A stretch of 64,000 nucleotides of DNA. Source: Anaerolineaceae bacterium. Its GTDB lineage: Bacteria > Chloroflexota > Anaerolineae > Anaerolineales > Anaerolineaceae. This document shows, one piece after another, positions 684 to 18,181 of the stretch (its first letter is position 1; every line of letters starts with the position of its first letter). The position numbers and the translations under genes are program-made. The stretch covers positions 1 to 64,000 of the forward strand of contig JAENYZ010000002.1 of the NCBI GenBank assembly GCA_016841525.1, given 5' to 3'. Under the pieces are notes generated by a model. The model was not told the origin of the DNA. It saw nothing but the letters and a program-made list of their open reading frames with translations, and ran no database searches.

Positions 684-3600
684 ATGAAAGTTCATAATAG
701 ATTTATTAAAGCCTTTGGCGCACTGCTGATCGCCGCGCTGCTGTTTGGCGCGATGCCGGCGGGCGAGGTGAAGGCGCAGACGGGTCAGGATCTGTATGTA
801 GCAGAGTGGGGAACACCTGCAACAGCTTATGATCCTGCGAGTGGTGCACCGAGACCAATGGTTGTCTATGATGGCAGTCAATACCATATTTGGTATGGAT
901 TAGGTGATAATGCGCTGTACTACACGACATCAAGTGATCCGGCAAGTTTTGGAGCAGGGACATTGACAACCTTTAAAGATACATCAGAGTTAGTTTATCT
1001 ACCTTATGAGGTGGCCAGTCCGGCAATTGTGTATGAGGGTAGCACCTTTTATATGATTACCTATAAGACGGGCACAAATCTGGTGTTCTCGATCTATACC
1101 TCATCTGATGGCAACACTTGGACTTATAAGGGTGATGTCTACTCTGGTGAGGGATTAGGTACTCAGGGTACTGACTGGCGGAAAATCGACTCACCAGTTT
1201 TGGTGCCTGATGGTGGAACCTACAAATTGTATTTCCAGGTACCACACCCAACAACCGGCGCATACAATATTTTTATGGCTGAAACTGGTGCAACGACATT
1301 GGCTGATATTGCCGATTCTGATGATGACACTGATTTCACACTTGCCAATAGCAACAACCCAGTCTTAACTATTGGTTCAACAGGAGAGCCGGATGATCTC
1401 GGTGTGCAGCATCCTATGGTGGTTAAGGATGACGGGACTTATTACATGTGGTACACCGGTATTGGTACAGGTACTTATGCTTGGCGCTCGATCAATTTCG
1501 CTACTTCCCCGGATGGCATTACCTGGACGAAATCACCTGCTAACCCAATTATCAAGGAGCTGAATTCTCATGCCGAACCCACGGTTGTGAAAGTGGGAGA
1601 TGTGTGGCATTTGTGGCATGAATATAATGAGACCAGTATTCAATATGTATCAGCCTCTGGACCTTTTGAATTTCAGACTATCCAGTCTGCGATTGATGCA
1701 GCCAGCGTTGGCGACACGATCGAAGTAGGGCCTGGTGAATATGACGAAGATGTTATAGTGAATAAAAATATAACATTACAAGGCAAGAACGCACCTGATG
1801 GTGTCGATGCTGCAGTTATAAATGGCTTGCTATATGTTACTGCTGATGGCGCTACAGTCGAATCTCTCAAGGTCGTTCCAGGTAATGTGGAGGGTCAAAA
1901 AGCTGGTATCTCAATAACAGCCAGCAATGTAACAGTAACAGGTAACTACGTTGCCGATATGACTGGTGATGGATCAAAGTCAATTAAGGGTATTTATGTC
2001 TATAATGACAACTTACCGGCATTGACAAACATTGTTATAAGCGAAAACAAAGTTGAGAACATTAACAATAGTGCTTCATCAAGTGGATATGCAGGATCAA
2101 GCGGCATTATGCTGCAAGGTGTATTAGATGGCATCGACGTTTTAGATAATGTGATCCTGAACATAACATCTGAAGGTTGGGTGTATGGTATTGAAGTAAC
2201 ACCTACGAATACAACTGACGGTCTTGCTAATCCACCTGCAAATGTATTAATCGAAAACAATGAGATTAACTCGGTAAATCCTACCGGAACCGATGTTGCA
2301 CCTTACGCTGGTGTTGGATTTAGTATTGATGTGGCTGGGCCTGAAAATACGCCTGCTGATGCAAGTGAGGTAGTTCTTCGTTACAATAAGTTCCTCAATA
2401 CACCTCTTTCGGTAGTCAACAAAGATTCAGTCAATACATTAGACGCCAAAGCTAATTGGTTTGATGGGACTGAAGAACCTTCCAATACATATGGGCTTAT
2501 TGATTACAACCCATGGTGCTATACAGCAGATTGTTCAGAACTCTACGTAGCGGATGGTGGTTTGATTCAGGATGGCATTGATCTGGTTAAGAACAGCACG
2601 GTTTATGTAGGTCCTGGAACATATGCGGAAGAGATTGAAATTTATGAAGCAGTAAACCTTATTGGTCCAAATGCTGGTATCGATCCTAATACTGGTGTGC
2701 GTGAAGATGAGGCTATCATAACACCTGAAACAACTGAATCGTGGTTTAGTGTCTATATAGAAGCAGGAAATGTGTTGCTTGACGGCTTTACCATTGATGG
2801 CGAAGATACTATTGATTACGGCATATACGCAGCAAATTCAGACCCTGTTGGGCCGGTTACAATACAAAATAACCGAGTATTGCACATTGAATATTATAGT
2901 TTTCTTGGATATGTTGAGAATGCTGTTTCATCAGGAAATGTCGTACAGAACAATTTGTTTCAATATTGTGGTGAAAGAGCTATTTTGCCATTGTGGAACT
3001 ATTATGCCAATGTTCTTAATAACACAATCAAGGACACATCTATTGGCATATATTCAGAAAATACATCCAAACCTTCGGGTGTGATACCGGTTGTTTGGGC
3101 TAACAATACTATCGAAGCTACCCGATCAGGTATTTGGTATAACCTTGCATATGGTAATGCCACCTCACTGCAAATTAAGGAAAACACAATCACTGCAATC
3201 GATGATACAGAAGGAACACGTTTTGACGGCATTTGGCTGACCTCATTGGGCGGTAGTGTTGATCCTGAAATTGCAGATAATGTGATTATCGGTGATGACA
3301 TTACACAATTGGTTACAGGGTACCATTTATGGAACGATACGACGACAGCGACCGATGGAATAAAGATTTCTGGAGGTAGTGTCAGTGATGCAGATTATGG
3401 TATCTGGGCAAATAACTGGGATGGTTATCCTACATCTGGTGGTAGTGAAGCAGGACCAACTACGGCTAAAATTGAAGACATTGAAATAAGTGATTCCAGA
3501 ATTGCTGGTCTTTATATTAAGGATAACCCTCTAGAGGCGGATGGCGACGAAGTAATTGCTTCAATTTTCACGAGTGAGCTGACAAATAATGTCACAGGGA

Positions 3601-6263
3601 TACTTGTTGAAGGCGATGATGCCCATGCATCTGGTGACCATAACAAAATTGTTGGTTCAACGACGGATGTTGAGAGTTCGGCGATCGTTACACTTGATTT
3701 TGAAGAAAACTATTGGGGCTCACCATGTGGACCGGTTGTAATTGGTGATGTGGATTACATTCCATGGTTTGCTGATGAGGCGATGTTAATTCCCCGCACG
3801 GAAAATGTCTCTGGCACTTTCACCCTTACAACAGCGATGACCTCAATAGAAAAGAATGCCATCATCGAATGTGCGGAACCCAATACAGTGTTTACATTTG
3901 AGGTTGGAACTGAAGCACATGCAGGTGGTATCATCGTTAATAACGATTACCTGACCTTCAATCTTAATGGTGCCGAAATTGGTTCAGCGTCACCTGCCTT
4001 TACTATCAATGGTGACTACATTGTTATCAACGGGCCTGGCACCTTGGATGGTGGTGGAAGTTCAGATCATGCCATCGTCGTCGATGATGGGGTGATTGAC
4101 TTCACCCTCGACACGGTAGAGATTCTAAATTGGGCAGACGGCCTTCATTTCAACGGTGTCATCACAGACACGGTCATTGTGGATAATTTCATCCATGACA
4201 ATACCGGCGATGCAGTCTACTTCGGTGCACAACCTGTCGCCCAAACCGGAGATAGCTTCTACATCCAGGGGAATATGTTCAAGGACAACGTTGGTGTAGG
4301 CGTCAATAATGCTGGCACAACAGCCGATGTTAATGCAGAATATAACTCCTGGGGTGATTATTCAGGATCTGCTGCCCCAGATGGTGACGGCAGCACGAAC
4401 GCAGGTACCGATCCCATCACCCACGTGGAAGTATTTATCGAATCCACCAACCCTGATGTTGACAACTGGTCGCGCCAGGTGTTTGTGGGCGAACAGATCA
4501 CCTACGAGGTGACTGCAGACTTACGTCAAGTAATGGGTGCAGATTTTGTTCTGGAATTCCCCACAAACCTCTCTGTTGCATCTCACACAGTAGGTACCGT
4601 GTTTGATGAGAATTATGTGACGATAACCGGAAACGAAATCCACTTTGAAGCTTATCAGAAGCAAACTGAAGTTGGCGGCGTTACTATTCCTGCAGAACCT
4701 GTCGCTGATGGGCAAGGATATTTGTTGTTTACCGTTACCTTTGACGCTGACACTGTTGGCAAGGACCTGCCGCTCAACTTTGACGAAACGACGGATAACT
4801 TCAGCATGTCCCCGGGCTACGGCCCCTCATTAAATATTTATGCCGATGAGCTGGTGGATGCCACATTGGATGTAATCGACCGACCGACATTGGCAATTAC
4901 TGGTCTTGAAGACCCACTATACGCAGGTGTGATGAGCCAAGAGATCACACTAGAAACATGCAATCCACTAACAGGCGGTGATTGGACAGAATCTGTAGCA
5001 GCACCCATCGAACCTGATACAATTGGTTGGGTCCGGATTGAGGGTATCGACCTTGATGAAATTGCCAGCTTGCAGTTCCTTTATGATGGGGTTTGGTATG
5101 ACTTTTCTGTTCAGGATCAATACGGCGGAACAGCCGTTCAACAAGACGGGGTCGATGTCATCGCCAGATTTGGGAATTACAATTTTGGCCTTGAAATCCC
5201 GGTTGATTGGTGTGATATCGATAAGTTCCGGGTGACCTTTATCAATCCAGGTAGCTATGACGTCACAGTCTCAATTTATGACATGATGGATACGCCATTT
5301 GATGGTATTGATCTAAATGATATCTTACTTGTAGAGACTTCTGTTGTCATCACGGTAGAAGCAGGTGATTTTGAAGGCGTTGGCACCATTTCGATGCAAG
5401 GGCGCACAGAACGTTTGGGCGTACCGGTTACTCTGTTGTCTGATTGGTATACAGATGCCCTTTTCTATTCAACGAGCACGATCAGCGATAACCTTCGGGT
5501 TACAACCAGCGGCGGTTTATACACCTTTACGACAAATCAACCCCGCTACTTAAATGTGACCGCTGACTTAGAAAAATTCATTTGGGTTGATGGTAGTAGC
5601 CCCTATGAGATTGCAACCATTGAACTTAAGGGTGGGAACGCCAAATGGGTTGATGACAATACCATTGATCTTGATGATGCTTCTATTGTTGGCGCAAACT
5701 ATGGGAAGCTACCTTCCGATCCTCTTTATAACGAAAATGCGGATGTCAACTTTGACGGCAAGGTCAGTATCCAAGACCTGGCGCTGGTCGGCGGCAACTA
5801 TGACCTGACGTCAGAAGTGGCTTATGCTGCCTGGTCACCGCAAGCTGATGAGACCGTTCCCGGATTAGATGGGGTCTCACCTGCTGAAGGTCCAGTGGTT
5901 TTAGGGGCTGAAGAACCATTCGTATGGATCGTTGATGCCTCTGATGCGGGTGATAACCTGTATGAGCTGGAGGTCGATCACAGCATGGAAGGAACAATAC
6001 CTGAATTTAGTGTTTATGCTAATGAAGGTAATCCTTATGGTACGCTTGCAGAAAAAGCTGAATTCGAATCCAACGGGGTTTACGTAACCTATATTGCAGC
6101 AGACCAAATGTGGATCATCAACTTTGGTGAGACAATCACAGATGCGTTTGTTGACAATGGCGGCATTACCTTCTATGTGGTGTTGAAGGACAGAAATGGG
6201 AACCAATTTGGCACCATGTCTGGAACCACATCTGAAAACACATTTGTGTACACTTTTGAGTAG
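684..6263 (+). CDS. Giant secreted protein: propeller, beta-helices, cohesin-like and dockerin modules
   Basis: This 1859-residue protein begins with a Sec signal peptide (about 1-32, ending near VKAQ). Residues 35-325 show repeated motifs of the kind PMVVYDG..YHIWY and HPMVVKDDGTYYMWYTG, typical of five-bladed glycosidase-like propellers (GH43/GH130-like). At about 328, 619 and 1043 new parallel beta-helix segments begin (IQSAIDAASVGDTIEVGPG..Y is a classic cap). A cohesin-like domain spans about 1245-1400. A carboxypeptidase-regulatory-like module ending in QPRYLNV precedes a type I dockerin at about 1650-1712, with two calcium-loop segments including ADVNFDGKVSIQDL. A beta-rich C-terminal domain follows. 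The start is fixed by GGAGG at 670-674. I infer a cell-surface glycan-binding or glycan-cleaving scaffold component; catalytic residues were not assigned. Carrying both a cohesin and a dockerin is unusual and could allow chain assembly with neighbouring proteins. Confidence 0.9.
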   Translation: MKVHNRFIKAFGALLIAALLFGAMPAGEVKAQTGQDLYVAEWGTPATAYDPASGAPRPMVVYDGSQYHIWYGLGDNALYYTTSSDPASFGAGTLTTFKDTSELVYLPYEVASPAIVYEGSTFYMITYKTGTNLVFSIYTSSDGNTWTYKGDVYSGEGLGTQGTDWRKIDSPVLVPDGGTYKLYFQVPHPTTGAYNIFMAETGATTLADIADSDDDTDFTLANSNNPVLTIGSTGEPDDLGVQHPMVVKDDGTYYMWYTGIGTGTYAWRSINFATSPDGITWTKSPANPIIKELNSHAEPTVVKVGDVWHLWHEYNETSIQYVSASGPFEFQTIQSAIDAASVGDTIEVGPGEYDEDVIVNKNITLQGKNAPDGVDAAVINGLLYVTADGATVESLKVVPGNVEGQKAGISITASNVTVTGNYVADMTGDGSKSIKGIYVYNDNLPALTNIVISENKVENINNSASSSGYAGSSGIMLQGVLDGIDVLDNVILNITSEGWVYGIEVTPTNTTDGLANPPANVLIENNEINSVNPTGTDVAPYAGVGFSIDVAGPENTPADASEVVLRYNKFLNTPLSVVNKDSVNTLDAKANWFDGTEEPSNTYGLIDYNPWCYTADCSELYVADGGLIQDGIDLVKNSTVYVGPGTYAEEIEIYEAVNLIGPNAGIDPNTGVREDEAIITPETTESWFSVYIEAGNVLLDGFTIDGEDTIDYGIYAANSDPVGPVTIQNNRVLHIEYYSFLGYVENAVSSGNVVQNNLFQYCGERAILPLWNYYANVLNNTIKDTSIGIYSENTSKPSGVIPVVWANNTIEATRSGIWYNLAYGNATSLQIKENTITAIDDTEGTRFDGIWLTSLGGSVDPEIADNVIIGDDITQLVTGYHLWNDTTTATDGIKISGGSVSDADYGIWANNWDGYPTSGGSEAGPTTAKIEDIEISDSRIAGLYIKDNPLEADGDEVIASIFTSELTNNVTGILVEGDDAHASGDHNKIVGSTTDVESSAIVTLDFEENYWGSPCGPVVIGDVDYIPWFADEAMLIPRTENVSGTFTLTTAMTSIEKNAIIECAEPNTVFTFEVGTEAHAGGIIVNNDYLTFNLNGAEIGSASPAFTINGDYIVINGPGTLDGGGSSDHAIVVDDGVIDFTLDTVEILNWADGLHFNGVITDTVIVDNFIHDNTGDAVYFGAQPVAQTGDSFYIQGNMFKDNVGVGVNNAGTTADVNAEYNSWGDYSGSAAPDGDGSTNAGTDPITHVEVFIESTNPDVDNWSRQVFVGEQITYEVTADLRQVMGADFVLEFPTNLSVASHTVGTVFDENYVTITGNEIHFEAYQKQTEVGGVTIPAEPVADGQGYLLFTVTFDADTVGKDLPLNFDETTDNFSMSPGYGPSLNIYADELVDATLDVIDRPTLAITGLEDPLYAGVMSQEITLETCNPLTGGDWTESVAAPIEPDTIGWVRIEGIDLDEIASLQFLYDGVWYDFSVQDQYGGTAVQQDGVDVIARFGNYNFGLEIPVDWCDIDKFRVTFINPGSYDVTVSIYDMMDTPFDGIDLNDILLVETSVVITVEAGDFEGVGTISMQGRTERLGVPVTLLSDWYTDALFYSTSTISDNLRVTTSGGLYTFTTNQPRYLNVTADLEKFIWVDGSSPYEIATIELKGGNAKWVDDNTIDLDDASIVGANYGKLPSDPLYNENADVNFDGKVSIQDLALVGGNYDLTSEVAYAAWSPQADETVPGLDGVSPAEGPVVLGAEEPFVWIVDASDAGDNLYELEVDHSMEGTIPEFSVYANEGNPYGTLAEKAEFESNGVYVTYIAADQMWIINFGETITDAFVDNGGITFYVVLKDRNGNQFGTMSGTTSENTFVYTFE

Positions 6264-6286
6264 ATGTAATTGAAACTTCACTAGTT

Positions 6287-6316
6287 TGCAGGCTGGGACA
6301 ATTGTCCCAGCCTGCA
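6287..6316. terminator. Perfect 30-bp palindrome after the giant gene
   Basis: TGCAGGCTGGGACAA is followed directly by its exact reverse complement. It lies 24 bases after the stop codon at 6263 and about 100 bases before the next gene. There is no T run on either side, so it is either an intrinsic terminator of weak type, an mRNA-stabilising hairpin or a symmetric protein-binding site. Terminator/processing hairpin is the simplest reading given its position. Confidence 0.55.
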
Positions 6317-6416
6317 GTAACCATTTTACTAACAAGGCCTTTCTTTATTAGGTATGATTAGCAAAATTGAGACCAATACCAAGCACTATTTTACAAGTAA
6401 TTATTGAGGACCTTTT

Positions 6417-6959
6417 ATGAAAAAGACCATCAAGATTTTATTGTTTATTGGATTAGGGCTTTTACTTTTTGCCCTACCGATGGCTGCTCGTTCCCAGGCT
6501 GAAACGATCGTCAGTGTGAATCCCCTCACGAGCAATGTGCAACCAGGGGATTCCTTCTCAGTGGATATTTGGGTGGAAAACGTCACAGATTTATACGGGT
6601 TTGATGTTACCCTACTTTTTAACCCTGCCCATTTACAGGTGGACAGCTTGGATTTAGGCGATTTTTTGAGTTCTGGTTTGGGTGGGGAAGATTTAGATAA
6701 CACTACAGGCATTATTAATTACTATAATACACAGATGTCTCCCTCAGTGCCAAAATCCGGGTCTGGAACCCTTTTTACGGTAAATTTTACAGCTCTAACA
6801 ACTGAAGTAACCACGTCTATCGATATTGATGATTCATTAACAGAATTGGTCGAATATGATACGTACCAATTAATTCCCTTTACAGCCCAGGATGGGTCGG
6901 TGGTGATTGGAGCTGGTTCATCCAAAATTTTGTTGTATTTGCCTTTGATTGTAAAATAG
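6417..6959 (+). CDS. Secreted single-cohesin protein with YLPLIVK tail
   Basis: This 180-residue protein has a signal peptide (about 1-28) and a single cohesin-like domain at about 30-165, recognised by the strand order and motifs such as FSVDIWVENVTDLYGFDV and LLFNPAHLQV. It lacks a dockerin or transmembrane anchor. Instead the chain ends in LLYLPLIVK, a short hydrophobic tail that recurs in other secreted proteins of this window. The start follows GAGGA at 6406-6410. It stands first in a run of cohesin genes on the same strand. Cohesins bind dockerins in cellulosomes; here the likely partners are the dockerins at about 5630-5820 and 7760-7960, which is inference. Confidence 0.85.
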   Translation: MKKTIKILLFIGLGLLLFALPMAARSQAETIVSVNPLTSNVQPGDSFSVDIWVENVTDLYGFDVTLLFNPAHLQVDSLDLGDFLSSGLGGEDLDNTTGIINYYNTQMSPSVPKSGSGTLFTVNFTALTTEVTTSIDIDDSLTELVEYDTYQLIPFTAQDGSVVIGAGSSKILLYLPLIVK

Positions 6960-6971
6960 AGAAATTTGTTG

Positions 6972-7967
6972 ATGAAAAAGTTTCTGAGGACGTTTGGATT
7001 ATTTTCTCTAGTACTCGCTATTATCTTACTTAGCTTGTCTATGGTGCATGCCCAGGATGAAACTACCGTTTCTTTTTTTCCAACAGATTCTACAATTGTT
7101 ATTAATGGGACAAATCTTAGCGAGGTTGAAATTAATATTACCGACGGTGTCAATGTAAATGCCCTGGAAATCGAATTGACGTATGACCCTGCTTTGCTGA
7201 ACCTCGAAGAAGTGGTATTAGGAGATTATCTAAAAAATTTAAGAAAGTTGGTTGAGATTGATAATGACGGTTATTATCGTCTTGTTGTTTACCAGGTTGC
7301 ATCCCCTGGGGTTTATGGTGATGGCACCCTCTTGCAGCTCAACTTTAGCGGCCTTGCTCCCGGAGTGTCAGCGATAAACATTGAGTATGTTAGGCTATCA
7401 ACGCCGGAGGGTAACTCCTCTTATCCGCCTGTCAATAATGGGACTATCACAACCGCCTATGACCCAGGACCCCTTGATAAAATTCCAGCCAGTGGCGAAA
7501 TTGAATTAGAAAGGCAGTCTGATCGGGGTGGAATCCCAATTACACTCACAGATGGTGCGATGTACTTAATTGGTCCTTATACCACTTTGAGTTTGTCGCA
7601 ACCTGGGACAAATTTGTATTTTGGTGAGGTGGTCCTCGACACCTATTTAATCACCACCCAGCAGCCCCGATATTTAAATTTAGATTCTTCGGTGAATAAG
7701 ACCTTCACTGTGTCAGTTGCTGAGACAACGATCAATCCTTTGGAATTAAAGATTGGCAATCCAGAATGGTCAGATAATGTGATTGATTTGAATGATCTTA
7801 ACCTGGTTGATGATTGGTTTGACAGGACTACAGAAGATTTGGATCCAGGTGAAGAACTGGACGCCGATGTAAATTTTGATGGACTGGTCAACGTTCAGGA
7901 TTTAGCAATTGTTGCGGGAAGATTTGGTTTAACCTCGATGGATGTTTATGCGGACTGGATCCCCTGA
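6972..7967 (+). CDS. Secreted cohesin plus dockerin protein
   Basis: This protein (331 residues from the ATG at 6972; a TTG six bases earlier is possible) has a signal peptide to about residue 28. A cohesin-like domain at about 33-165 contains VNALEIELTYDPALLNL. A carboxypeptidase-regulatory-like module at about 180-250 ends in TTQQPRYLNL. A type I dockerin at about 260-328 has two calcium-loop segments (NVIDLNDLNLVDDWF and ADVNFDGLVNVQDL). The module-plus-dockerin architecture matches the C-terminal part of the 1859-residue protein at 684, so the two share an ancestor. With one cohesin and one dockerin it could act as an adaptor linking two partners. It starts only 12 bases after the previous stop, consistent with an operon. 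Confidence 0.85.
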   Translation: MKKFLRTFGLFSLVLAIILLSLSMVHAQDETTVSFFPTDSTIVINGTNLSEVEINITDGVNVNALEIELTYDPALLNLEEVVLGDYLKNLRKLVEIDNDGYYRLVVYQVASPGVYGDGTLLQLNFSGLAPGVSAINIEYVRLSTPEGNSSYPPVNNGTITTAYDPGPLDKIPASGEIELERQSDRGGIPITLTDGAMYLIGPYTTLSLSQPGTNLYFGEVVLDTYLITTQQPRYLNLDSSVNKTFTVSVAETTINPLELKIGNPEWSDNVIDLNDLNLVDDWFDRTTEDLDPGEELDADVNFDGLVNVQDLAIVAGRFGLTSMDVYADWIP

Positions 7968-8007
7968 GTACGGTAGACGGTATTTTTGAATTGGTAGAAT
8001 ATACAGG

Positions 8008-8982
8008 ATGAAGCAATGGTGGAAAACCTTTCAAGTGATTTTGGTCCTGGTCGCAGCCCTGGTCTGGCTGTCACCTGCCCACGCACAAACCGGGTTCCAG
8101 CTGGCGGTCAGCCCCTTGCTGACAGAGGTCCCGATTGGCACCGACTTCACCTTGGAATTGAACGTGGAAGAAGGGCTTGATTTGAACGCTTTTGATGTGA
8201 CCCTGGTGTATGATCCCGAAGTTCTGCGCCTGGTGGATTGGGCGTACGGGGATTATTTCACCAACCTGGCGTCGATGAGCGTGATTAATCAGCCCGGGGA
8301 ACTGCGGGTGGCAGCCACACAGGTGGCATCCGCCCCGGTTTCGGGTGATGGGCTCTTGCTCACCTTGAACTTTAATGCCAAAACCGATGGCTTTTCACCG
8401 GTGGATATCACCCGGGCGGAATTTGCTGATTCGGATGGGAACAAGCTGGAACCAGAAGTGGTCCATGGGCAGGTTTTGGTAACGCTGGCGCCGACTTATA
8501 CCCCTACAGCGACGTTGACACCCACCAGGACGTCGACGCTTACGCCGACAGTCACTGCCACGGGGACGAGGACAGGTACCCCAACATCGACCTTGGCCCA
8601 GACGGAAACGGCCGAAGTCTTTACACAGACGCCAACATCAGCTTTCACTGAGACCCCATCTGGACAAACCGGAACTGCCTTGACCCGGACTGCAACAGGG
8701 ACGGCACTGGCGGGAACGGCTGACAGCAGACTGACACCAACCATCACCAGGTCCCCATGGCCGGTTTTGGAAGCGTCTGTAACAAATATACCGCAGACAT
8801 CGGTCACGCCGATGAGCGTCAACGATGAACCCCTGCCCACGCAGGATCTGGATCAAAGTTCACGAAATTTATTGAACGGGTTGCTGTGGGGCATGTTGAT
8901 TGCCGCGGTGATCATATTAATCGTGTTGATCGTTTTAATTATTCGAAGAGTGACTGAAGAAGAAGAGGATTTATTGTTATGA
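8008..8982 (+). CDS. Membrane-anchored cohesin protein with Thr/Pro stalk
   Basis: This 324-residue protein has a signal peptide (1-27), a cohesin-like domain at about 30-160 (LNAFDVTLVYDPEVLRLVDW), a long Thr/Pro/Ser-rich linker at about 162-285 built of TPT-like units, and one transmembrane helix at about 289-312. It ends in a short cytoplasmic tail with RR then four Glu. The order is that of an anchoring scaffoldin: cohesin outside on a stalk, fixed in the membrane. Its stop overlaps the start of the next gene by four bases, so the two are translationally coupled. It is predicted to hold dockerin-bearing proteins such as those encoded at 684 and 6972 on the cell surface (inference). Confidence 0.87.
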   Translation: MKQWWKTFQVILVLVAALVWLSPAHAQTGFQLAVSPLLTEVPIGTDFTLELNVEEGLDLNAFDVTLVYDPEVLRLVDWAYGDYFTNLASMSVINQPGELRVAATQVASAPVSGDGLLLTLNFNAKTDGFSPVDITRAEFADSDGNKLEPEVVHGQVLVTLAPTYTPTATLTPTRTSTLTPTVTATGTRTGTPTSTLAQTETAEVFTQTPTSAFTETPSGQTGTALTRTATGTALAGTADSRLTPTITRSPWPVLEASVTNIPQTSVTPMSVNDEPLPTQDLDQSSRNLLNGLLWGMLIAAVIILIVLIVLIIRRVTEEEEDLLL

Positions 8983-9851
8983 GATTTACAGGAAAAAGAC
9001 TGGCATTGTTCATCATCATTCTAACGGGTCTGATCCTGTTACCCTTTGGGGTTGCTGCTGCCCAGGGCGATACCCAGGGGGGTGTCTTTGGCAACTTCGA
9101 GGTCGCCCCTGGCGATCGTGTTGAGATCCCGGTTGAGATTCGGGGGGTGAGCGAGCTCTACGCCGTGGATATCGAGATTCGCTTTGACCCTGATGTGATC
9201 CAGATTGAGGATGCCAACCCGAACCTGGATGGAATCCAGCCTGCGCTGGGTACCTTTTTGGATGCCGGGCTGACTTTGTTCAACGTGGTGGATAATGAGC
9301 AGGGCATCATTCAGTTTGTGATGTCCCAGGTCAACCCCAGCGAGCCGAAATCCGGCGACGGCGTGCTGCTGATATTGTATGCCCTTGGCAGTGATGAAGG
9401 GGAGAGTGACCTGGCGGTCACAAAGCTGGAATTCTCCGATCGATTTGGCGAAGCCATCCCTGTGGAAGCGGTGGATGGGACGATCAGCGTTTCGGAAGGC
9501 GCTGCTGAGAGCCAATCGACGGCGATCCCCGTCCAGGACCCGACCGGCTTGGTCCAGGTACCGACCCAGATGCCTACTTCAACGCCGACAGCGACCTCGG
9601 TTCCCCCAACCCCGACGCCAACTGCCGTACCGACAGAGGGTGTTCAAGGCGAAGGTGAGGAATCCCCTGAGGAAGGCGAGTCCGTTTTCATTCCTATGGT
9701 AGAATCAGAACAAGAGGGAACGGACGAAATGGATGTGGGTCAAGAAGAATCGGAAGACGGATTTACACTTTTGGAATATTGGTGGATCGTACTGATCGTG
9801 GTAGGCGCAGTGATCGCTGCCGCGGTTTACCTGCTGGTGACGAAGAAATGA
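8979..9851 (+). CDS. Membrane-anchored cohesin protein with acidic/PT stalk
   Basis: This 290-residue protein starts at an ATGA overlap with the upstream gene. It has a signal peptide (about 1-29), a cohesin-like domain at about 33-165 (SELYAVDIEIRFDPDVIQI), a PT-rich stretch at about 185-215, a Glu/Gly/Ser-rich acidic region at about 216-262, one transmembrane helix at about 266-287 and a tiny KK tail. The architecture repeats that of the upstream gene, but the cohesin sequence differs clearly, so the two anchors may recognise different dockerins. Together they form the membrane attachment layer of the cluster. Confidence 0.87.
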   Translation: MRFTGKRLALFIIILTGLILLPFGVAAAQGDTQGGVFGNFEVAPGDRVEIPVEIRGVSELYAVDIEIRFDPDVIQIEDANPNLDGIQPALGTFLDAGLTLFNVVDNEQGIIQFVMSQVNPSEPKSGDGVLLILYALGSDEGESDLAVTKLEFSDRFGEAIPVEAVDGTISVSEGAAESQSTAIPVQDPTGLVQVPTQMPTSTPTATSVPPTPTPTAVPTEGVQGEGEESPEEGESVFIPMVESEQEGTDEMDVGQEESEDGFTLLEYWWIVLIVVGAVIAAAVYLLVTKK

Positions 9852-9913
9852 CGCACCTTTTGACAGCGCACGCAATGATTAATGAAGCATTTAGGGGAAG
9901 GAGTTAGAAATAA

Positions 9914-11887
9914 ATGAGACAAAATACAAGATTCTTTGTTGGTATGATCCTATTTACCTTACTGGTCGGTGGGGGGCTTTCCGGCAGCGTGCTGGCATCC
10001 GGGGGCGAGCGGATCGACCCGGCAGACCTGCAGGCGATAACGCCGGAAACACTCATCTTGCAGGAGTCAGCGGATGGCTTGACCTGGACGCCCATCATCG
10101 GGGACCTGGGGGATGGCTATTCGATGGTGCTTGACCCGGCGAAGGATTACCTGGTGGATATTGAAATGTTGGAGGCGGACCCGGTATTGGCTGACGACTG
10201 GTATGGCATTGATTTTGATGATTTCCGAGCGCCGGACGGTTTCTTTGAATATTGGGCTGGTGAGGGCATTGATGAAAATTCAACAGGAGATGCTGAAAAG
10301 ATGTGGCAGATCATCAATGGCGAACTGCCGATGTTTTACATCAAAGCATCAGGGGGCACCTACAGTCTTGTCGACGGGTATTTATATGCGATAGATGCTG
10401 CTCCCGAATCGGTTACCACACCATGGCAGCTCAACGGCGATCTCCCTTTAGGGACTTACCATTTTGGGGGTTGGGTGGATTCAGAATATCTGAACATCCA
10501 GATCACATTCACCAAGCAGGCGACGGTGTCACTAAGCTCAGAGTCATGGACCATCGACGGCTGCGGCTACCTAGATGTTTATATCCGCCTGGCGGATGTG
10601 CATGACCTGTACGCGGTGGACATCAGCATTAAATTTGATGAAACCGTGCTGGAAGTGATGGATATGGATGATGCGGTTGGTATCAATTTGCAGCCAATAA
10701 ACACCTGGTTCAATTCGGAATATTTTGTTTATAACGAGGCGGATAACAGTGGAGGCACCATTCGTTATGTTGCCACCCAGCAGCGGACAACGGACCCGGT
10801 TGATGACGAAGGGGACATTGCCATGATTCGCTTCCGGGCGAAGGATATTGGCAGCGGTGATATCACAATAACTGGCGCAGAGCTATCCGACCGGGATGGG
10901 TATCTGGTCGGGCGGCCAATAACCTGGGATGAGCCTGCGGCAACGATAACCACCCAGTTTACTGCTGCCGGCGGGTTGGATCTGGATATCATCCGTTTGG
11001 ATAGTGCCAACGTGCAGCTGAGCTGGCCAAAATTGGCTGAAGAAGAAGTCTCAGAATATCGGCTTTATCGCTCCACCCTGCCGTATTTTGATATTGGTGA
11101 CGCTGAAGTTGTGGAAATGGATGATACAGCCTTTGTTGAGGGAACCTCAGAAATAACTTTTAATGATCAGGTGCTTGGTAAAGTAGGGCCAGCAGACCCG
11201 GAGATACCGGAGCCGGATAATAATTATTTCTACGCCTATGGCTTGCAAGTTGCCTGTTCGAACGACTTTGCCAGTCCCCTGTCCGACCAGGTGGGGAAGA
11301 TCGAATTTGAACTTTGGGAAACAAATACAAGGGATTATGCATGGATTGGGTTGATATTGGACAATGAAACCATTCTTGATTCAATAGATCTCGCCAATAA
11401 TATTGAGAGTCATATTTATTCGGGAACAATAAATGTATTGACAATAGGCGAATGGAACCTCTCCGGGCAAAATATGACAAATTATAACCATGTAAATGAA
11501 ACTTCCAAATATGATGTTTTTATAAAGCAGCCTTATAGGGTAGAAGTGGATATTGATGGGACGACTTCTGGTTCTGTAATCTGGGCGCAAGTGGGCAAAT
11601 TACCTGAAATTTCTGCTGGTATGTATACCTTTGATGAAACAGCAATAACAGATTTTTCCTGGATTCTTCATCCTTTGGACAAAGTCAATATCTTTACTTC
11701 TGATCAATTGGTATCAGATATTGAGGTGTCAGGAGAAGTTAATGTTTTGGCAATTGGTGAATGGAATGGTACTGCGCAGAATATGACAAATGTTATTCCT
11801 GGTGTCAGTTCTTTCAATACTAGGTTTGGATATCCTTATAGAGTTGAAGTCCAAATGTTAATTGGCGGTCCAGTGACATGGCCTTAA
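9914..11887 (+). CDS. Secreted cohesin protein with FN3-like and tandem C-terminal modules
   Basis: This 657-residue protein follows a strong GGGGAAGGAG ribosome-binding site. It has a signal peptide (1-29), an N-terminal domain of unknown type at about 35-195 (rich in Asp, Trp and Tyr), a cohesin-like domain at about 202-348 (VHDLYAVDISIKFDETVLEV), an FN3-like domain at about 352-455 (VQLSWPKL...YRLYRST), and two related modules at about 470-560 and 572-657. Both of the latter contain a VL.IGEWN....QNMTN core and a PYRVEV strand. There is no dockerin, YLPL tail or membrane span, so it may be released or held by other proteins. The tandem C-terminal modules are not a family I recognise. Confidence 0.8.
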   Translation: MRQNTRFFVGMILFTLLVGGGLSGSVLASGGERIDPADLQAITPETLILQESADGLTWTPIIGDLGDGYSMVLDPAKDYLVDIEMLEADPVLADDWYGIDFDDFRAPDGFFEYWAGEGIDENSTGDAEKMWQIINGELPMFYIKASGGTYSLVDGYLYAIDAAPESVTTPWQLNGDLPLGTYHFGGWVDSEYLNIQITFTKQATVSLSSESWTIDGCGYLDVYIRLADVHDLYAVDISIKFDETVLEVMDMDDAVGINLQPINTWFNSEYFVYNEADNSGGTIRYVATQQRTTDPVDDEGDIAMIRFRAKDIGSGDITITGAELSDRDGYLVGRPITWDEPAATITTQFTAAGGLDLDIIRLDSANVQLSWPKLAEEEVSEYRLYRSTLPYFDIGDAEVVEMDDTAFVEGTSEITFNDQVLGKVGPADPEIPEPDNNYFYAYGLQVACSNDFASPLSDQVGKIEFELWETNTRDYAWIGLILDNETILDSIDLANNIESHIYSGTINVLTIGEWNLSGQNMTNYNHVNETSKYDVFIKQPYRVEVDIDGTTSGSVIWAQVGKLPEISAGMYTFDETAITDFSWILHPLDKVNIFTSDQLVSDIEVSGEVNVLAIGEWNGTAQNMTNVIPGVSSFNTRFGYPYRVEVQMLIGGPVTWP

Positions 11888-11941: not shown

Positions 11942-13075
11942 ATGAATAAGAAACTTAGAATATCTTTGGGTTTAGCAGGATTGTTAACGGTTCTGACAGT
12001 TATTCAGGTTATTGCAGGTGCATCTTTCGATTTCGGTGAATTGCCGGGTGCGCCACCAGAGGGAGAGGCAAACTGGGTTGCATGGAATGATCAGGGTGAA
12101 ATTTCGGATGGTTTTCCATTAGAAATATTAACTGAGGATAATACCAACTCTAAACTGGGTGAAAATATTGGTTATTCTGAATATGGTGATGGGGACACCA
12201 ATGTAGAATGGTGGATACAGATAGAAAATTTTTTCTACTTACCAAGGACGTCTCCATTTTCTGATAATATTTATTTTATTTTTGGTGGGCTTGGTGATAC
12301 TTACTCTGGAAGTCTTTGGCAATACACAATTGATCAATGGATTATTACAGAAAGTGCAACTGAGCATTTCCCAGAAGATGTAATTACATTTTCCGGTGAA
12401 GCTTGCCCAATTATTAGTGTACAGCCTATTCCTGAACCAGTAAATCCTGAAGAGGGAAGGACTTTCTCTTTTTCAGGGACAATGCCCGGGGTAACTTATC
12501 ATATTTATCGAAGTCAAAATGCATCAGGGGCTAATAACGGGGCAAGCAACGGGCAGTATTTCTATATTGATACAGTAACAATACCTGAGAATAAAAATCT
12601 TTATGTTTACACCGACAATACTCCAATACAGGATGGTCCAGCGTGGTATTTGGTTATCCAGGCAGATCCTGACTCAAATGCAATCATTGGCTGCCACAGC
12701 GAAGAGGGGATACCTACGAATGTCACTATGGGTGAATTTACAGCTTTCTATGACGACGAGAAGTCCGTTGTTGTGCTGGAATGGGAAACGGTCAGTGAGA
12801 CAAACATCGTAGGTTTTAATGTTTTCCGCGGCACAAGCGAAACCCTGGTCGGCAGTGTCAAGATCAATACGGCAATCATTCCCGCAAAACAACCCGGGTC
12901 ACCGGTTGGAGATATTTACACCTTTGAAGATGCCGATGTTGTGGATGGGCAAACCTATTATTACTGGATCGAAATTCTGACCAATGATATGTCCGATCAA
13001 ACCGTTGGGCCAAAGTCAGTGACGATCCCCGAACCAGCGTGGTTCTATTATTTCCTGCCGCTGCTTTTTAATTGA
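11942..13075 (+). CDS. Secreted beta-rich protein with FLPLLFN tail, copy A
   Basis: This 377-residue protein has a signal peptide (about 1-27) and a start supported by AAGGAG nine bases upstream. Its N-terminal domain (about 30-260) is of unknown function. The C-terminal 115 residues form an FN3-like domain (VVLEWETVSETNIVGFNVFR) that ends in WFYYFLPLLFN. The last third is nearly identical to that of the gene at 13938, while the first two thirds are only distantly similar. It carries no cohesin or dockerin. The tail resembles the YLPLIVK end of the gene at 6417 and may be a sorting or attachment signal (inference). Confidence 0.8.
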   Translation: MNKKLRISLGLAGLLTVLTVIQVIAGASFDFGELPGAPPEGEANWVAWNDQGEISDGFPLEILTEDNTNSKLGENIGYSEYGDGDTNVEWWIQIENFFYLPRTSPFSDNIYFIFGGLGDTYSGSLWQYTIDQWIITESATEHFPEDVITFSGEACPIISVQPIPEPVNPEEGRTFSFSGTMPGVTYHIYRSQNASGANNGASNGQYFYIDTVTIPENKNLYVYTDNTPIQDGPAWYLVIQADPDSNAIIGCHSEEGIPTNVTMGEFTAFYDDEKSVVVLEWETVSETNIVGFNVFRGTSETLVGSVKINTAIIPAKQPGSPVGDIYTFEDADVVDGQTYYYWIEILTNDMSDQTVGPKSVTIPEPAWFYYFLPLLFN

Positions 13076-13280: not shown

Positions 13281-13358
13281 CATTGAGATTACTTTGTACT
13301 CGCAATGGCGGATTAAGAGCTACTGGCTACCAACCACCAGCTACCAACTACCATACAC
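13281..13358. repeat. Dispersed intergenic repeat
   Basis: CATTGAGATTACTTTGTACT leads into CGCAATGGCGGATTAAGAG and then a tandem tract of CTACCAACCACCAGCTACC type. The same blocks in the same order occur at 15209-15262, and in part at 45-108 and 15328-15412. Confidence 0.6.
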
Positions 13359-13689: not shown

Positions 13690-13937
13690 TCCCCAGAGAT
13701 GACAAATACTGGGTTTTCAACGCAGCACCTCAATAATCTGAAACAAATTCAAGGTCTTCTTTTACCATCAAGGGCAAATTAACAAACTTATGATTTAAAA
13801 TCCAATTTCATACCATTTTCTGGATGCATCTGAAGGGCAGGAGGTGATTTTTATTCTGAAATTTCTTTTTCACAACCGTAAAAAATTGAAAAGGTGAGGA
13901 TTTTTACATCAGGATGACTTGTGAAAGGGTAGAATTG

Positions 13938-15035
13938 ATGAACAAAAAATTGTTGATTTCTTTAATGCTGGGGGTTTTGCTCTCATTAACTGAAGTATTA
14001 GTTGTTTTAGCCGGCATAACGAATGATGTTGGCACCCTCGAATTGGACCCGCCTGTGGGACAGGTCAATTACACTGCCTGGTTGAACATTTACGGGTCTG
14101 AATTCCCATACTCTCTGACCCATCCCCCTGAGGAAATTCTTACAGAGGATGGCTTTAATTTTGCTGCTGGAGAAGATGGCGGTTTTATTGAGAATAACTG
14201 GCAGCTCAGTGTTGGGGCTTTTTCCAATGAAGGGGATAATTTTCCGGTAAATATTCAATTTGGTGGCCTTGGTGATTACAGCGGGACCCATTGGTATTAC
14301 AAATTCAAGTGGGATGGCCTTGATGAACTGACAACAAATCACACCACGCCAGTCCCCATAAGTACCAGTGCTGGTGCTGCCTGCCCTTGGATATTGCCTG
14401 TGGAAGTCCAGGAGACAACAAATGTTGTCTCATTTTTTGGCGAACCGACCAAGACTTACCAAATCTATCGAAGTACCATACCCGCCTGTGATGGGTGCAG
14501 TAATAGTAATGGGAGATATCTGCGCCTGGGTGAAGTGACGACGGATGCTAATGGGTCAGGGATCTATCATGATAATGAACCCGGTATCACCGAGATTCAG
14601 GCATGGTATGTTGTAATTTATTTTGATGATAATTCGTACGGAGCTCATGGCTGCCACAGTGAGCCTGTTGATCCTACCAATGTCGTCATGGGTGAATTTA
14701 CAGCCGTTTATGATGATGAAAAATCAGCTGTTGTGCTGGCATGGGAAACGGTCAGCGAAACGAATATCGTAGGTTTCAATGTCTTTCGCGGCACTAGCGA
14801 AACCCTGGTCGACAGCGTCAAGATCAATACGGCAATTATCCCCGCCAAACAACCCGGATCACCGGTTGGGGATATGTACACTTTTGAAGATGTGGATGTC
14901 GATGATGGGCAAACCTATTATTATTGGATAAAAATACTAACAAATGATATGTCCGATCAAACTGTTGGTCCGGAGTCAGTTACAATCCCCAACGCACCGT
15001 GGTTTTATTATTTCTTGCCGCTGCTGTTTAACTAA
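13938..15035 (+). CDS. Secreted beta-rich protein with FLPLLFN tail, copy B
   Basis: This 365-residue protein starts at ATG 13938, preceded by AAAGGG; an ATG at 13914 would add eight residues before the signal peptide and is less likely. The signal peptide spans about 1-26. The N-terminal domain is of unknown function and contains a CDGC pair. The C-terminal 115 residues are almost identical to those of copy A (about a dozen differences) and also end in WFYYFLPLLFN. The contrast between a conserved C-terminal cassette and a divergent N-terminus suggests modular duplication or gene conversion of the tail cassette. Confidence 0.8.
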   Translation: MNKKLLISLMLGVLLSLTEVLVVLAGITNDVGTLELDPPVGQVNYTAWLNIYGSEFPYSLTHPPEEILTEDGFNFAAGEDGGFIENNWQLSVGAFSNEGDNFPVNIQFGGLGDYSGTHWYYKFKWDGLDELTTNHTTPVPISTSAGAACPWILPVEVQETTNVVSFFGEPTKTYQIYRSTIPACDGCSNSNGRYLRLGEVTTDANGSGIYHDNEPGITEIQAWYVVIYFDDNSYGAHGCHSEPVDPTNVVMGEFTAVYDDEKSAVVLAWETVSETNIVGFNVFRGTSETLVDSVKINTAIIPAKQPGSPVGDMYTFEDVDVDDGQTYYYWIKILTNDMSDQTVGPESVTIPNAPWFYYFLPLLFN

Positions 15036-15208: not shown

Positions 15209-15262
15209 ATTGAGATTGCTTCGTACCTCGCAATGACGGATTAAGAACTAACAACTAACAGC
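15209..15262. repeat. Dispersed intergenic repeat
   Basis: AATTGAGATTGCTTCGTACC followed by TCGCAATGACGGATTAAGAA and a short CTAACAACTAACA tract. It is the same arrangement as at 13281-13358. Confidence 0.6.
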
Positions 15263-15327
15263 GTTGTGTTTGTCGACACACCATATACGAGCAGTAGTTT
15301 CAATCACAAGGCAATGGTGTTGGCTAA

Positions 15328-15412
15328 ATTGATATTACTTCGTAGACAGGACGCTTTGCAGTCGTGCCTCGCAAAGATGGATTAAGAGTTACCAACTACC
15401 AACCACCAGCTA
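15328..15412. repeat. Dispersed intergenic repeat
   Basis: TTGATATTACTTCGTAGACA, then CTCGCAAAGATGGATTAAGA, then TTACCAACTACCAACCACC. It is a variant of the repeat at 13281-13358, with a longer segment between the first and second block. Confidence 0.6.
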
Positions 15413-15499
15413 AAAGTGTTGTGGTTGTCTTATCACCAAAAACGACCAAAAATAGAATCTGTTTGGTGATGGCATTGGATAAATTCATGCATAGAAAAT

Positions 15500-15592: not shown

Positions 15593-16186
15593 TTACGGTG
15601 TCTTGGTGACGATGATAAATGGCTGTGGGCCGTCTGAGCGGGTGGGTGTGCTCGTCGGTTCGCTTGTGGGGGTAAAGGTTTCAGTCGGAGCCTGGGTGGC
15701 TGTGTGTGTGCTCGTTGGCGTTTCAGTTGGCATAGCCGTTGCCGAAGGTACAGGCGTCTCCGTTGATGTTGAAACTTCAGAGGTTTCTGAGGGGGTAGGG
15801 CATTCTGTCTCGGCAGGAGGAATGAGACCATCGTTGTTCCTCGATCCGATTTTATCCCCGATGTTTGTTATTTGTGGTATCAGGATAACCAGCAGAAACA
15901 GGATGATGATCGACAGGCTCACCAACCAGACCTTCGTGTTATATAATGCGCGTTTCCAATTTGGGTAATCTGCACGTAAAAATTTGGGGAACCCGCCTGT
16001 TTCCCATCCAGTAATGTAACCAGCGCACCGTGTGTGGGATTCTGTGAGGCAGTGACTTTTCTGGTAAGAAAGTTTTACAGGAACAGGTTTTTTTACCCGG
16101 TGGCATGCGTTGTTTTCGTATGGGAAATCTTTGCATGAGGATGGGTCATCAAGCATGCAAAGGTAAGGGCAGATTTTTGTTTCCAT
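15593..16186 (-). CDS. Cys/His-head membrane protein with Thr/Pro tail, short paralogue
   Basis: The protein has 197 residues from the ATG at 16186; an upstream start at 16267 would add 27 residues not shared with the paralogue. Residues 6-57 form a Cys/His-rich head: C6-P-Y-L, D13-D14-P, C28-H29-R, H45-C46-L and C54-x-G-Y. One transmembrane helix follows at about 85-107, then a Ser/Thr/Pro-rich tail of TPT/ETP units to the end. The head lies on the likely cytoplasmic side and could bind zinc through C6, C28, C46 and C54 (inference). From memory, similar heads occur in Chloroflexota proteins, sometimes joined to LysM. The function is unknown. Confidence 0.75.
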   Translation of the reverse strand: METKICPYLCMLDDPSSCKDFPYENNACHRVKKPVPVKLSYQKSHCLTESHTRCAGYITGWETGGFPKFLRADYPNWKRALYNTKVWLVSLSIIILFLLVILIPQITNIGDKIGSRNNDGLIPPAETECPTPSETSEVSTSTETPVPSATAMPTETPTSTHTATQAPTETFTPTSEPTSTPTRSDGPQPFIIVTKTP

Positions 16187-16450
16187 AAAGTCTTCTTTGA
16201 TAAAGTGGTCCAGATGGGACGGATTGATTGCGGCCCGATCATCTTTTCCAGAGTCTATGTGCTGCATTGTTCCTTCAGCCTAACAATTATACTATTAGAT
16301 TTTTTAATCAGATATTTTTCTCACAGGTTTATATATAGCAAGAATGATGCCAACGCTGTTATTTAAGCGCAACAAATGGTCAGATCAGTTGATAGAATAA
16401 AAATTTTGCGAATCACAGATAGCCTTTTATGCCCCCATAAACTGTTCCCC

Positions 16451-17839: not shown

Positions 17840-18181
17840 GTGGCTGCTTTTATCGTGGGTGTTGGTTAGCTTCAGTTTCTCATTGGCTTTTAATTGAAAC
17901 CAGTCGCAAAGTTGGACTGTGTTCAAATGACAGATAGAATTATAAATGAACAAACCTTTGTATAGATACTATAATCTAGTTTCCAATATTTTAGTGGAAA
18001 TATTGAAGCAAGAAATGTACCAGAAGCGATTTAGGAGGATACAAAGAGAAAGTCTTAAGTAAAATTAACCCTGGCTGGGCTTGTTTTCCACAATAATTTA
18101 TTTTTGCTTTTTCAGTTCAATATGCCAACCAGTGAACGATGCAAAATTTTTCTATAATCTATTCCCTTTTTTCACCCAATA
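17840..18181. other. Gene-free stretch before rpsB
   Basis: This divergent intergenic region carries promoters for the minus-strand Cys/His-head gene and for rpsB. Apart from AT-rich sequence near 17940-18000 and an AGGAGG at 18032-18037 with no frame behind it, I see nothing definable until the rpsB promoter. Confidence 0.4.

Follow-up and report, generated by a model that had tools for sequence, protein, structure and literature searches.

Single-cohesin and X-dockerin proteins in an Anaerolineaceae genome, a probable non-cellulosomal set for surface assembly

The first 64,000 nucleotides of contig JAENYZ010000002.1 of an Anaerolineaceae genome (GenBank assembly GCA_016841525.1), hereafter called the window, contain six adjacent genes, here named P1 to P6, the products of which carry one cohesin each. 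Two of these proteins, P1 and P3, also carry a dockerin preceded by an X-module, and two others, P4 and P5, have a Thr/Pro stalk and a predicted membrane helix. We consider it probable, at roughly 60%, that these genes encode a non-cellulosomal set of cohesin and X-dockerin proteins for surface assembly, which displays large adhesive proteins.

The six open reading frames (ORFs) follow each other head to tail on the plus strand from 684 to 11887. From P1 to P6, they are separated by 153, 12, and 40 nt, a 4-nt overlap, and 62 nt, when P3 is taken to start at the ATG at 6972; an in-frame TTG at 6966 would extend P3 to 333 amino acids. P1 (684-6263; 1859 amino acids) is a secreted giant composed of a propeller (771-1688), a NosD-like β-helix region (1689-4403), a cohesin (4422-4877), an Ig-like part, an X-module with dockerin (5364-5840), and a C-terminal domain (5859-6260). 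P2 (6417-6959; 180 amino acids) is a small secreted protein with a cohesin at 6501-6911 and LYLPLIVK at its C terminus. P3 (6972-7967; 331 amino acids) is an adaptor with a cohesin (7059-7457) followed by an X-dockerin (7479-7964), an order abbreviated below as Coh-X-Doc. In P4 (8008-8982; 324 amino acids) and P5 (8979-9851; 290 amino acids), the start of which overlaps the P4 stop, cohesins at 8092-8484 and 9069-9494, respectively, are followed by the Thr/Pro stalk and a membrane helix at 8887-8943 and 9786-9842; P4 ends in the tail EEEEDLLL. P6 (9914-11887; 657 amino acids) is secreted and has its cohesin at 10517-10957, between an N-terminal domain and a C-terminal half. The membrane helices of P4 and P5 and the hydrophobic N termini of all six proteins were identified in a hydropathy scan.

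The Pfam Cohesin family PF00963 (cut-off, 24.1 bits) recognizes five of the six cohesins, i.e., those of P2 (43.2 bits), P3 (26.7 bits), P4 (44.6 bits), P5 (35.2 bits), and P6 (29.0 bits). It gives no match in P1 at E-values up to 1. The cohesin of P1 is found with a custom profile built from 27 cohesins, of this genome and of relatives, P1 itself being one of the rows (67.5 bits; E = 2.2e-18). When genomes were searched, two P1-type proteins of relatives, with 37.5 and 27.6 bits, exceeded the Pfam cut-off; in a whole-protein hmmscan, they score 33.3 and 23.5 bits, the latter just below it. AlphaFold models of the P3 and P1 cohesins have the cohesin fold: 132 residues align with solved cohesins in both cases, with a Z-score of 16.8 and a root-mean-square deviation (rmsd) of 2.3 for P3 and of 15.1 and 2.4 for P1, the confidence score (pLDDT) of the P1 model being mostly 81-95 for model residues 31-130. 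The cohesins of P2, P4, P5, and P6 are assigned by Pfam. Among solved structures, the cohesin profile best matches the type II cohesin 3l8q_A (E = 2.2e-14) and also 4u3s_A (E = 1.2e-05); a single-sequence phmmer search with P2 was uninformative. The initial annotation, which had proposed six consecutive plus-strand genes for secreted proteins with cohesin modules and a Thr/Pro stalk plus membrane helix on the products of those at 8008 and 8979, is borne out on both points, by the ORFs, by Pfam in five of the six and the custom profile in all six proteins, and by the hydropathy scan. The Pfam family that it named is silent on P1, which the custom profile and the model rescue, and the jelly-roll fold that it presumed is present in the models of P3 and P1.

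With the Pfam Dockerin family PF00404 (cut-off, 22.9 bits), the dockerins of P1 and P3 are borderline: they score 18.8 and 16.2 bits with hmmscan, both below the cut-off, and 25.4 bits (above) and 19.8 bits (below), respectively, in a genome search. A conserved β-module, the X-module, precedes each of them; it had escaped the initial annotation, which had placed dockerins on these two proteins. X-module and dockerin form a unit of ~160 residues, the X-dockerin, which is conserved in relatives. A profile of this unit, A2, built with both window X-dockerins included, scores 200 bits for P1 and 212 bits for P3, and with it the two dockerins stand. A2 also matches the solved X-dockerin dyads 4u3s_B, 4wi0_B, 5k39_B, 2b59_B, 5g5d_B, and 3kcp_A (E-values from 2.2e-07 to 1.6e-05), including those of ScaA of A. 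cellulolyticus (4u3s_B; E = 2.2e-07, profile positions 4-149 of 158) and of CipA of C. thermocellum (2b59_B; E = 4.2e-06). The single CipA chain 3kcp_A is matched by the cohesin profile and then by A2, i.e., the cohesin comes before the X-dockerin. Foldseek aligned P3 along 4fl4_C (E = 2.8e-16) with a TM-score of only 0.35 and an rmsd of 19.6; hence, the modules of the two differ in relative orientation. By its predicted modules, P3 would correspond to the last three modules of CipA as a stand-alone protein. The second calcium loop, DVNFDGxVNIxD (DVNFDGKVSIQD in P1), is kept in all 25 rows by eye and in 23 by pattern, the other two having Cys for Val. Model confidence for the dockerin part is moderate in P3 and poor in P1. 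Since the C-terminal model of P1 is poor beyond approximately its first 320 residues (mean pLDDT, 56.3), the X-dockerin of P1 is assigned from its sequence. When this model was submitted to Foldseek, the cohesin-FN3 pair 2w1n came first, followed by integrins, pilins, and other Ig-rich chains.

Among the relatives, whose genomes, contigs, and loci are designated below by handles beginning with G, C, and L, respectively, X-dockerins of this type go together with a cohesin in the same chain in 25 of 26 matches, the 26th (G019) being truncated by the start of its contig. The cohesin scores over 25 bits in 23 of these 25 chains; those of G470 and G496 score 19.3 and 24.1 bits. Thus, by domain content, these dockerin proteins would act as links with two ends rather than as mere cargo. 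Within this X-dockerin type, the remaining proteins would, judging from their domains, be sockets only, and such an architecture might permit chains that are seeded on membrane sockets. Other dockerins in the family, identified with Pfam among 61 genomes, are found in chains without a cohesin match, i.e., at 58 bits in G038 (C46) and three of 31-34 bits in G028 (C267, L065), and the one-chain rule is therefore limited to this X-dockerin type. In G021 (C33, L063) and G051 (C57, L064), a cohesin and a dockerin are combined in one protein of 1291 amino acids that adjoins a cohesin protein of 620-650 amino acids.

As far as domain profiles tell, neither X-dockerin protein of this genome carries a recognizable active enzyme. 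The N-terminal module of P1 resembles a five-bladed propeller, and hmmscan reports GH43 with 19.5 bits (cut-off, 32.2) and GH130 with 16.3 bits (cut-off, 26) for it, both below threshold. The E-D-P of the solved GH130 enzymes 9fj8 and 7fip, a stretch that we take to be the site of the GH130 catalytic aspartate, aligns with Q-H-P in P1, GH130 being the family with which residues were compared. Besides, the propeller is present in only four ORFs of three genomes among the 25 loci searched. For these reasons, a catalytic GH43/GH130 domain was rejected, and the module is probably not catalytic. The GH43/GH130-type propeller that the initial annotation had seen in the largest protein is thereby reduced to a related module outside the conserved part of P1. 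The region that follows it matches NosD of NCBIfam with 50.7 bits, below the cut-off of 300, and Beta_helix is found over its cut-off (36.9 bits) in a P1 relative (L108). By Pfam, no cellulase or carbohydrate-binding module (CBM) was found in window P1 or in seven scanned P1-type relatives, one of which has a sub-threshold pectinesterase match. Further P1-type proteins yielded little beyond cohesin, dockerin, and β-helix, except for two odd repeat matches in one of them.

The genome, a draft of nine contigs that is 97.3% complete, was also searched as a whole with family-tuned profiles. These found two X-dockerins, those of P1 and P3, even with E-values up to 10 allowed, and seven cohesins, one per protein, of which six are encoded in the window and the seventh on contig C9. 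Neither a multi-cohesin scaffoldin nor a dockerin-bearing plant-polysaccharide enzyme was found in this genome, and a cellulosome was rejected on both grounds; cohesin and dockerin modules therefore occur here in a genome without a cellulosome. The initial statement that the cluster has no classical cellulase domain thus extends to the X-dockerin proteins of the whole genome. A putative third dockerin (C1:2999-3103; 17.8 bits with PF00404) was dismissed as a chance match, its frame being interrupted by a stop and lying opposite an ORF of 572 amino acids. The seventh cohesin belongs to a P4-like membrane protein, the gene of which is followed by that of a 2174-amino-acid protein with MBG repeats. 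This locus was absent from the initial annotation, as were two more secreted proteins, encoded at 11942-13075 and 13914-15035, and the gene order shared with relatives.

Twelve of the 147 family genomes, from 5 of 40 genera, have X-dockerins of this type (E-value threshold, 1e-10), and 22 of the 147, from 7 of 40 genera, have the cohesins. The genomes are drafts, and those with record titles are all metagenome-assembled genomes (MAGs). All 12 X-dockerin genomes are among the 22 cohesin genomes (Fisher p = 4.8e-12, uncorrected for kinship or linkage). Among the matches listed (at least ten), the named loci comprise eight from Anaerolineaceae or Chloroflexi/Chloroflexota MAGs and two weak ones from Poribacteria and Gottfriedia. 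In a sample of 400 genomes of the phylum, 21 match the X-dockerin at an E-value of 1e-8, with scores over 150 bits confined to Anaerolineaceae and the next best being 90 bits; a third match of G386 in this sample is located outside the stretch examined. The gene order P1-(P2)-P3-P4-P5-P6 recurs in relatives, although some have P2 elsewhere or not at all, G471 lacks P3, and G490 lacks P4.

The X-dockerins were labeled P1-type or P3-type by protein length, i.e., independently of the X-dockerin itself, and in their tree the two types (15 and 10 rows, respectively) separate with a support of 97/92, a split that is kept across genera. The cohesin tree comprises 78 of the 79 domains scoring over 25 bits, a truncated one of G040 being left out; it has few columns, and its deeper forks are unsure. 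In this tree, 11 of the 13 P1 rows form a clade with one P1-like row of G501 (100/99), nine of the ten P3 rows group with 16 membrane-anchored ones, called the P4 class (94/82), and 13 other membrane-anchored rows constitute the P5 class (98/92), whilst P2 and P6 rows are mixed. A strict pairing of P1 dockerins with P3/P4 cohesins and of P3 dockerins with P5 cohesins was considered and rejected: G490, which has no P4, fits it, but G471, which has no P3 and kept P5, does not clearly do so. As a separate observation, six P4-class membrane cohesins of this genus have a short acidic tail with leucines at its end, inside the cell (EEDLLL, DEDLLL, EESLLL, EDYLL, or DDYLL). It is found in P4 (8956-8979), at the end of the 368-amino-acid ORF of L067, and in the P4-type proteins of L054, L148, L157, and L163, and is missing in P4-class proteins of other genera and in one further protein of genus g1 (G470a).

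Several associations connect the cohesins with large repeat proteins. In G513, a P6-type cohesin precedes 12 Big_9 stretches and cadherin-like repeats in one giant protein, and a membrane cohesin adjoins a repeat giant in G000 (the C9 giant with its MBG repeats) and in G044 (a close homologue of that giant). The C-terminal domain of P1 is, by phmmer (E-values of 2.5e-45 to 7.7e-48 among others), twice shared with the giant encoded on C9 (L067), the giant of G044 (L148), and a P1-type protein of G010 (L054). The C-terminal half of P6 recurs in G470 and G496, and its N-terminal domain is also present in several P1- and P6-type proteins (phmmer). Of the two roles that had initially been offered, glycan capture or adhesion, adhesion is the better supported, by the cadherin/Big_9 giant of G513 and the giant beside a solo cohesin, and the route to glycans via the propeller lacks support.

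P7 (11942-13075, plus strand) starts 54 nt downstream of P6 and is a candidate for a further partner. It is a secreted protein that ends in FYYFLPLLFN and scores 557 bits with profile A6; its description draws on phmmer and an alignment of relatives. Matches to P7 over 280 bits are present in 7 of 147 genomes, six of which have cohesins; at an E-value of 1e-10, there are matches in 48 of 147 genomes, mostly covering only the C-terminal third. The lone membrane cohesin has a P7 relative as its neighbor in G491 and G514 and is followed by a giant in G044; neither is found beside it in G402. P7 as an obligate partner was rejected, since G461 (71% complete) has P7 over 280 bits and no cohesin match. 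No dockerin-like module was detected in P7 or in the C9 giant with Pfam and profile A2.

Secreted proteins without a membrane helix share a motif, [YF]LP[LIM][ILV]x[KRHN], at their very end. It is encoded in the window at 6936-6959, 13052-13075, and 15012-15035 and at the end of the C9 giant (about 8591-8614 in L067), and most P2-type proteins of relatives end in a similar motif. Genome-wide, the corresponding DNA pattern has 42 matches vs. 18 for the reversed pattern; 30 of the 42 have loci, and 15 of the 20 that are readable on the plus strand of these end frames of at least 144 codons. These bacteria may use the motif as a tag for sorting or attachment; a literature search on it brought up nothing fitting.

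These data suggest how a surface-assembly set might work. P4 and P5 would be the anchors, each with a membrane helix and a stalk presenting one cohesin, and P1 and P3 the two-ended links, in which the X-dockerin plugs into a cohesin, presumably in a calcium-dependent manner, and the protein's own cohesin offers a new socket. A chain in the order membrane-P4/P5, P3, P1 would be possible. P2 and P6 may be secreted proteins that act as sockets for the same plugs. The working ends would be the β-helix of P1 and, in relatives, the repeat giants on a P6-type cohesin. The likely role is adhesion between cells or of cells to particles, rather than digestion of cellulose; adhesion and surface display are favored because neither X-dockerin protein has a recognizable active enzyme and because cohesins are located on or beside repeat giants. 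One may go further and imagine a non-covalent, calcium-dependent fiber in which P3 and P1 add head-to-tail onto the sockets of P4 and P5 and which bears the β-helix and the repeat giants as adhesins. We regard this extension, which would make a third use of cohesin-dockerin pairs beyond enzyme scaffolding and simple anchoring, as possible, though rather improbable. If true, it would represent a pilus-like appendage without pilins or sortases that helps Anaerolineaceae to aggregate.

Several observations weigh against an X-dockerin-based surface-assembly set. The first calcium loop lacks its first Asp, by eye, in both window dockerins and in most others; such a degenerate loop would favor one binding mode. 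The P3 cohesin model is nearer to type I and archaeal cohesins (Z-scores of 16-17) than to type II cohesins (Z-score of about 14). For that reason, the cohesins are not called type II here, and the likeness of the two halves to the type II pair is one of sequence. The adhesive role is deduced from the partner domains. Furthermore, ten genomes of the family have cohesins without this X-dockerin, i.e., G472, G044, G040, G021, G051, G491, G497, G501, G402, and G514. Of these, G501 is 56% complete, and its P1-like protein runs off a contig; in G021 and G051, the cohesin protein also has a different dockerin, recognized by Pfam. In four of the ten, G044, G402, G491, and G514, a lone membrane cohesin of the P3/P4 class is found. 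Thus, some cohesins do without this X-dockerin. The initial annotation's idea of a self-contained set applies to the present genome only if the seventh cohesin locus on C9, which is probably adjacent, is included.

The lone membrane cohesins of these four genomes and the degenerate first calcium loop would also fit an explanation in which the cohesin folds are structural modules of stalks or adhesins that no longer bind dockerins, with the X-dockerins as inherited end modules without partners. One of the structures that the P1 cohesin matches in fold (Z-score of 12.2), the cohesin-like 'CLIPPER' domain of a fibrillar adhesin (9ifr), points the same way. Such a loss of binding is nevertheless unlikely, as the X-dockerins are confined to cohesin genomes in 12 of 12 cases, their second calcium loop is kept throughout, and their two classes have stayed separate across genera. 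Also unlikely, and somewhat more so, is a reduced degradative complex, in which the propeller and β-helix of P1 are held at the surface to capture or cleave polysaccharides. β-Helices are common in carbohydrate-active proteins, and the sub-threshold GH43 and GH130 matches of the propeller are accompanied by phmmer matches to mannan phosphorylases (E = 1e-05). However, Q-H-P replaces the E-D-P of GH130, most P1 relatives are devoid of the propeller, and, apart from the one sub-threshold pectinesterase match, Pfam showed no cellulase or CBM in P1 and the seven P1-type relatives scanned.

Alternatively, the membrane cohesins could mainly pair with secreted proteins of other kinds, e.g., the P7 family or the repeat giants, the X-dockerin links having been added later. 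The P7 relatives beside lone membrane cohesins in G491 and G514, the presence of cohesins in six of the seven genomes with strong P7 matches, and the giants located 3' of solo cohesins in G000 and G044 are in line with this. Yet P7 and the C9 giant have no dockerin-like module, the lone cohesin of G402 has no P7 match over 280 bits in its genome, and G461 has P7 and no cohesin match; we hold this explanation to be very doubtful. A cohesin/X-dockerin set that displays adhesive proteins at the surface remains the preferred explanation.

Contig C8 starts at base 1 of the window, and ~11-12 kb separate the cohesin gene on C9 from the end of that contig. In G044, which belongs to the same genus, collinearity with the end of C9 extends to base 12166 of L067; 81 bases further on in G044, collinearity with the window begins, at 13356. 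Hence, C9 and C8 are probably neighbors, with all seven cohesins in one region, and the P1-P7 block is absent from G044 as a unit. A dispersed repeat (D2) of ~50 nt, rich in CTACCAACTACC, is present upstream of P1 (45-94) and, with 82% identity to this first copy, at 13304-13353, where the block missing from G044 has its downstream end and just before homology to G044 starts again at 13356; no strand is assigned to either copy, and further copies are found at 15232-15281 and 15373-15422. Because copies lie near both edges of the block and the block is absent from G044, recombination between them may have moved or lost it. A paralogue of P7 (13914-15035, plus strand) is located outside the block. 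Near the adhesin loci, a family of membrane proteins is encoded on the minus strand (15593-16267 and 16451-17953 in the window; 8548-9315, 10846-11586, and 13896-14549 in L148). Its members have a start resembling CPYLGLIDD or CPYLCMLDD and a Thr/Pro-rich part, and no Pfam family matches them over cut-off. A known riboswitch upstream of P1 was rejected, as positions 1-720 give four sub-threshold Rfam matches, the best with E = 0.6; over the Rfam cut-offs, the whole window has two tRNAs only.

If the parts bind each other, the set would be a second candidate for how Anaerolineaceae hold onto each other, a case of purely structural work by the cohesin-dockerin lock, and a compact source of single-cohesin/X-dockerin pairs for engineering. 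In an earlier report on five Anaerolineae genomes and UNI-1, no cohesin or dockerin is identified, and the prevalence of these bacteria is ascribed to adhesiveness (PMC4877987). Against none reported in that text, 12 of 147 family genomes carry one type of set without a recognizable dockerin-bearing enzyme.

A parallel was found in a sister family (f2; L115-L119 and L122), six genomes of which encode a cohesin protein with a membrane helix at its C terminus between two Coh-X-Doc proteins. Of the 12 X-dockerin proteins in the stretches examined, 11 have a weak cohesin match (10-24 bits with a custom profile); the remaining one is truncated at the end of its contig. In L115, Pfam cohesins are over the cut-off in both link proteins and the membrane protein reaches 23.7 of 24.1 bits; one link carries an M23 peptidase domain, and the other has CarboxypepD_reg for its X-module. 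The f2 set thus resembles that of the window in combining Coh-X-Doc proteins with a cohesin-membrane-helix protein, but it has one anchor and different outputs (the M23 peptidase and a sub-threshold PPC), and it is distant in sequence, scoring 34-47 bits with the X-Doc profile.

Among solved systems, the set is most comparable to the type II pairs of cellulosomes, i.e., ScaB/ScaA of A. cellulolyticus (4u3s), both halves of which are matched in sequence, and CipA of C. thermocellum (2b59, 3kcp, and 4fl4). It shares with them the unit of X-module and dockerin and, in P3, the Coh-X-Doc order in a single chain that is seen at the CipA C terminus. In contrast to these cellulosome pairs, the window set has one cohesin per protein, membrane-helix anchors rather than SLH or sortase anchoring, cohesins whose models come closest to type I and archaeal ones, and no dockerin-bearing enzyme in its genome.

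Many bacteria and archaea have non-cellulosomal cohesins and dockerins (Peer et al., 2009, as cited in PMC9012536). The citing text describes dockerins on transporter-binding and S-layer proteins of ANME archaea and up to five cohesins per protein. Like those sets, the window set places cohesins and dockerins outside cellulose degradation, likely in surface assembly; unlike them, it is a syntenic cluster of single-cohesin proteins with X-dockerin and cohesin in one chain. Ca. Stygibacter, another anaerobe outside the Clostridia with a cohesin/dockerin set, has, according to its description, a cellulosome-like system with dockerin-bearing hydrolases and peptidases and a large, CBM-bearing multi-cohesin scaffoldin (PMC8542988); the window set differs from it in having neither enzymes nor such a scaffoldin. 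The cohesin-dockerin lock itself is known; among the titles and abstract openings of open-licence literature, no all-link surface set of single-cohesin proteins, anchored by membrane helices and with a gene order that recurs, was found.

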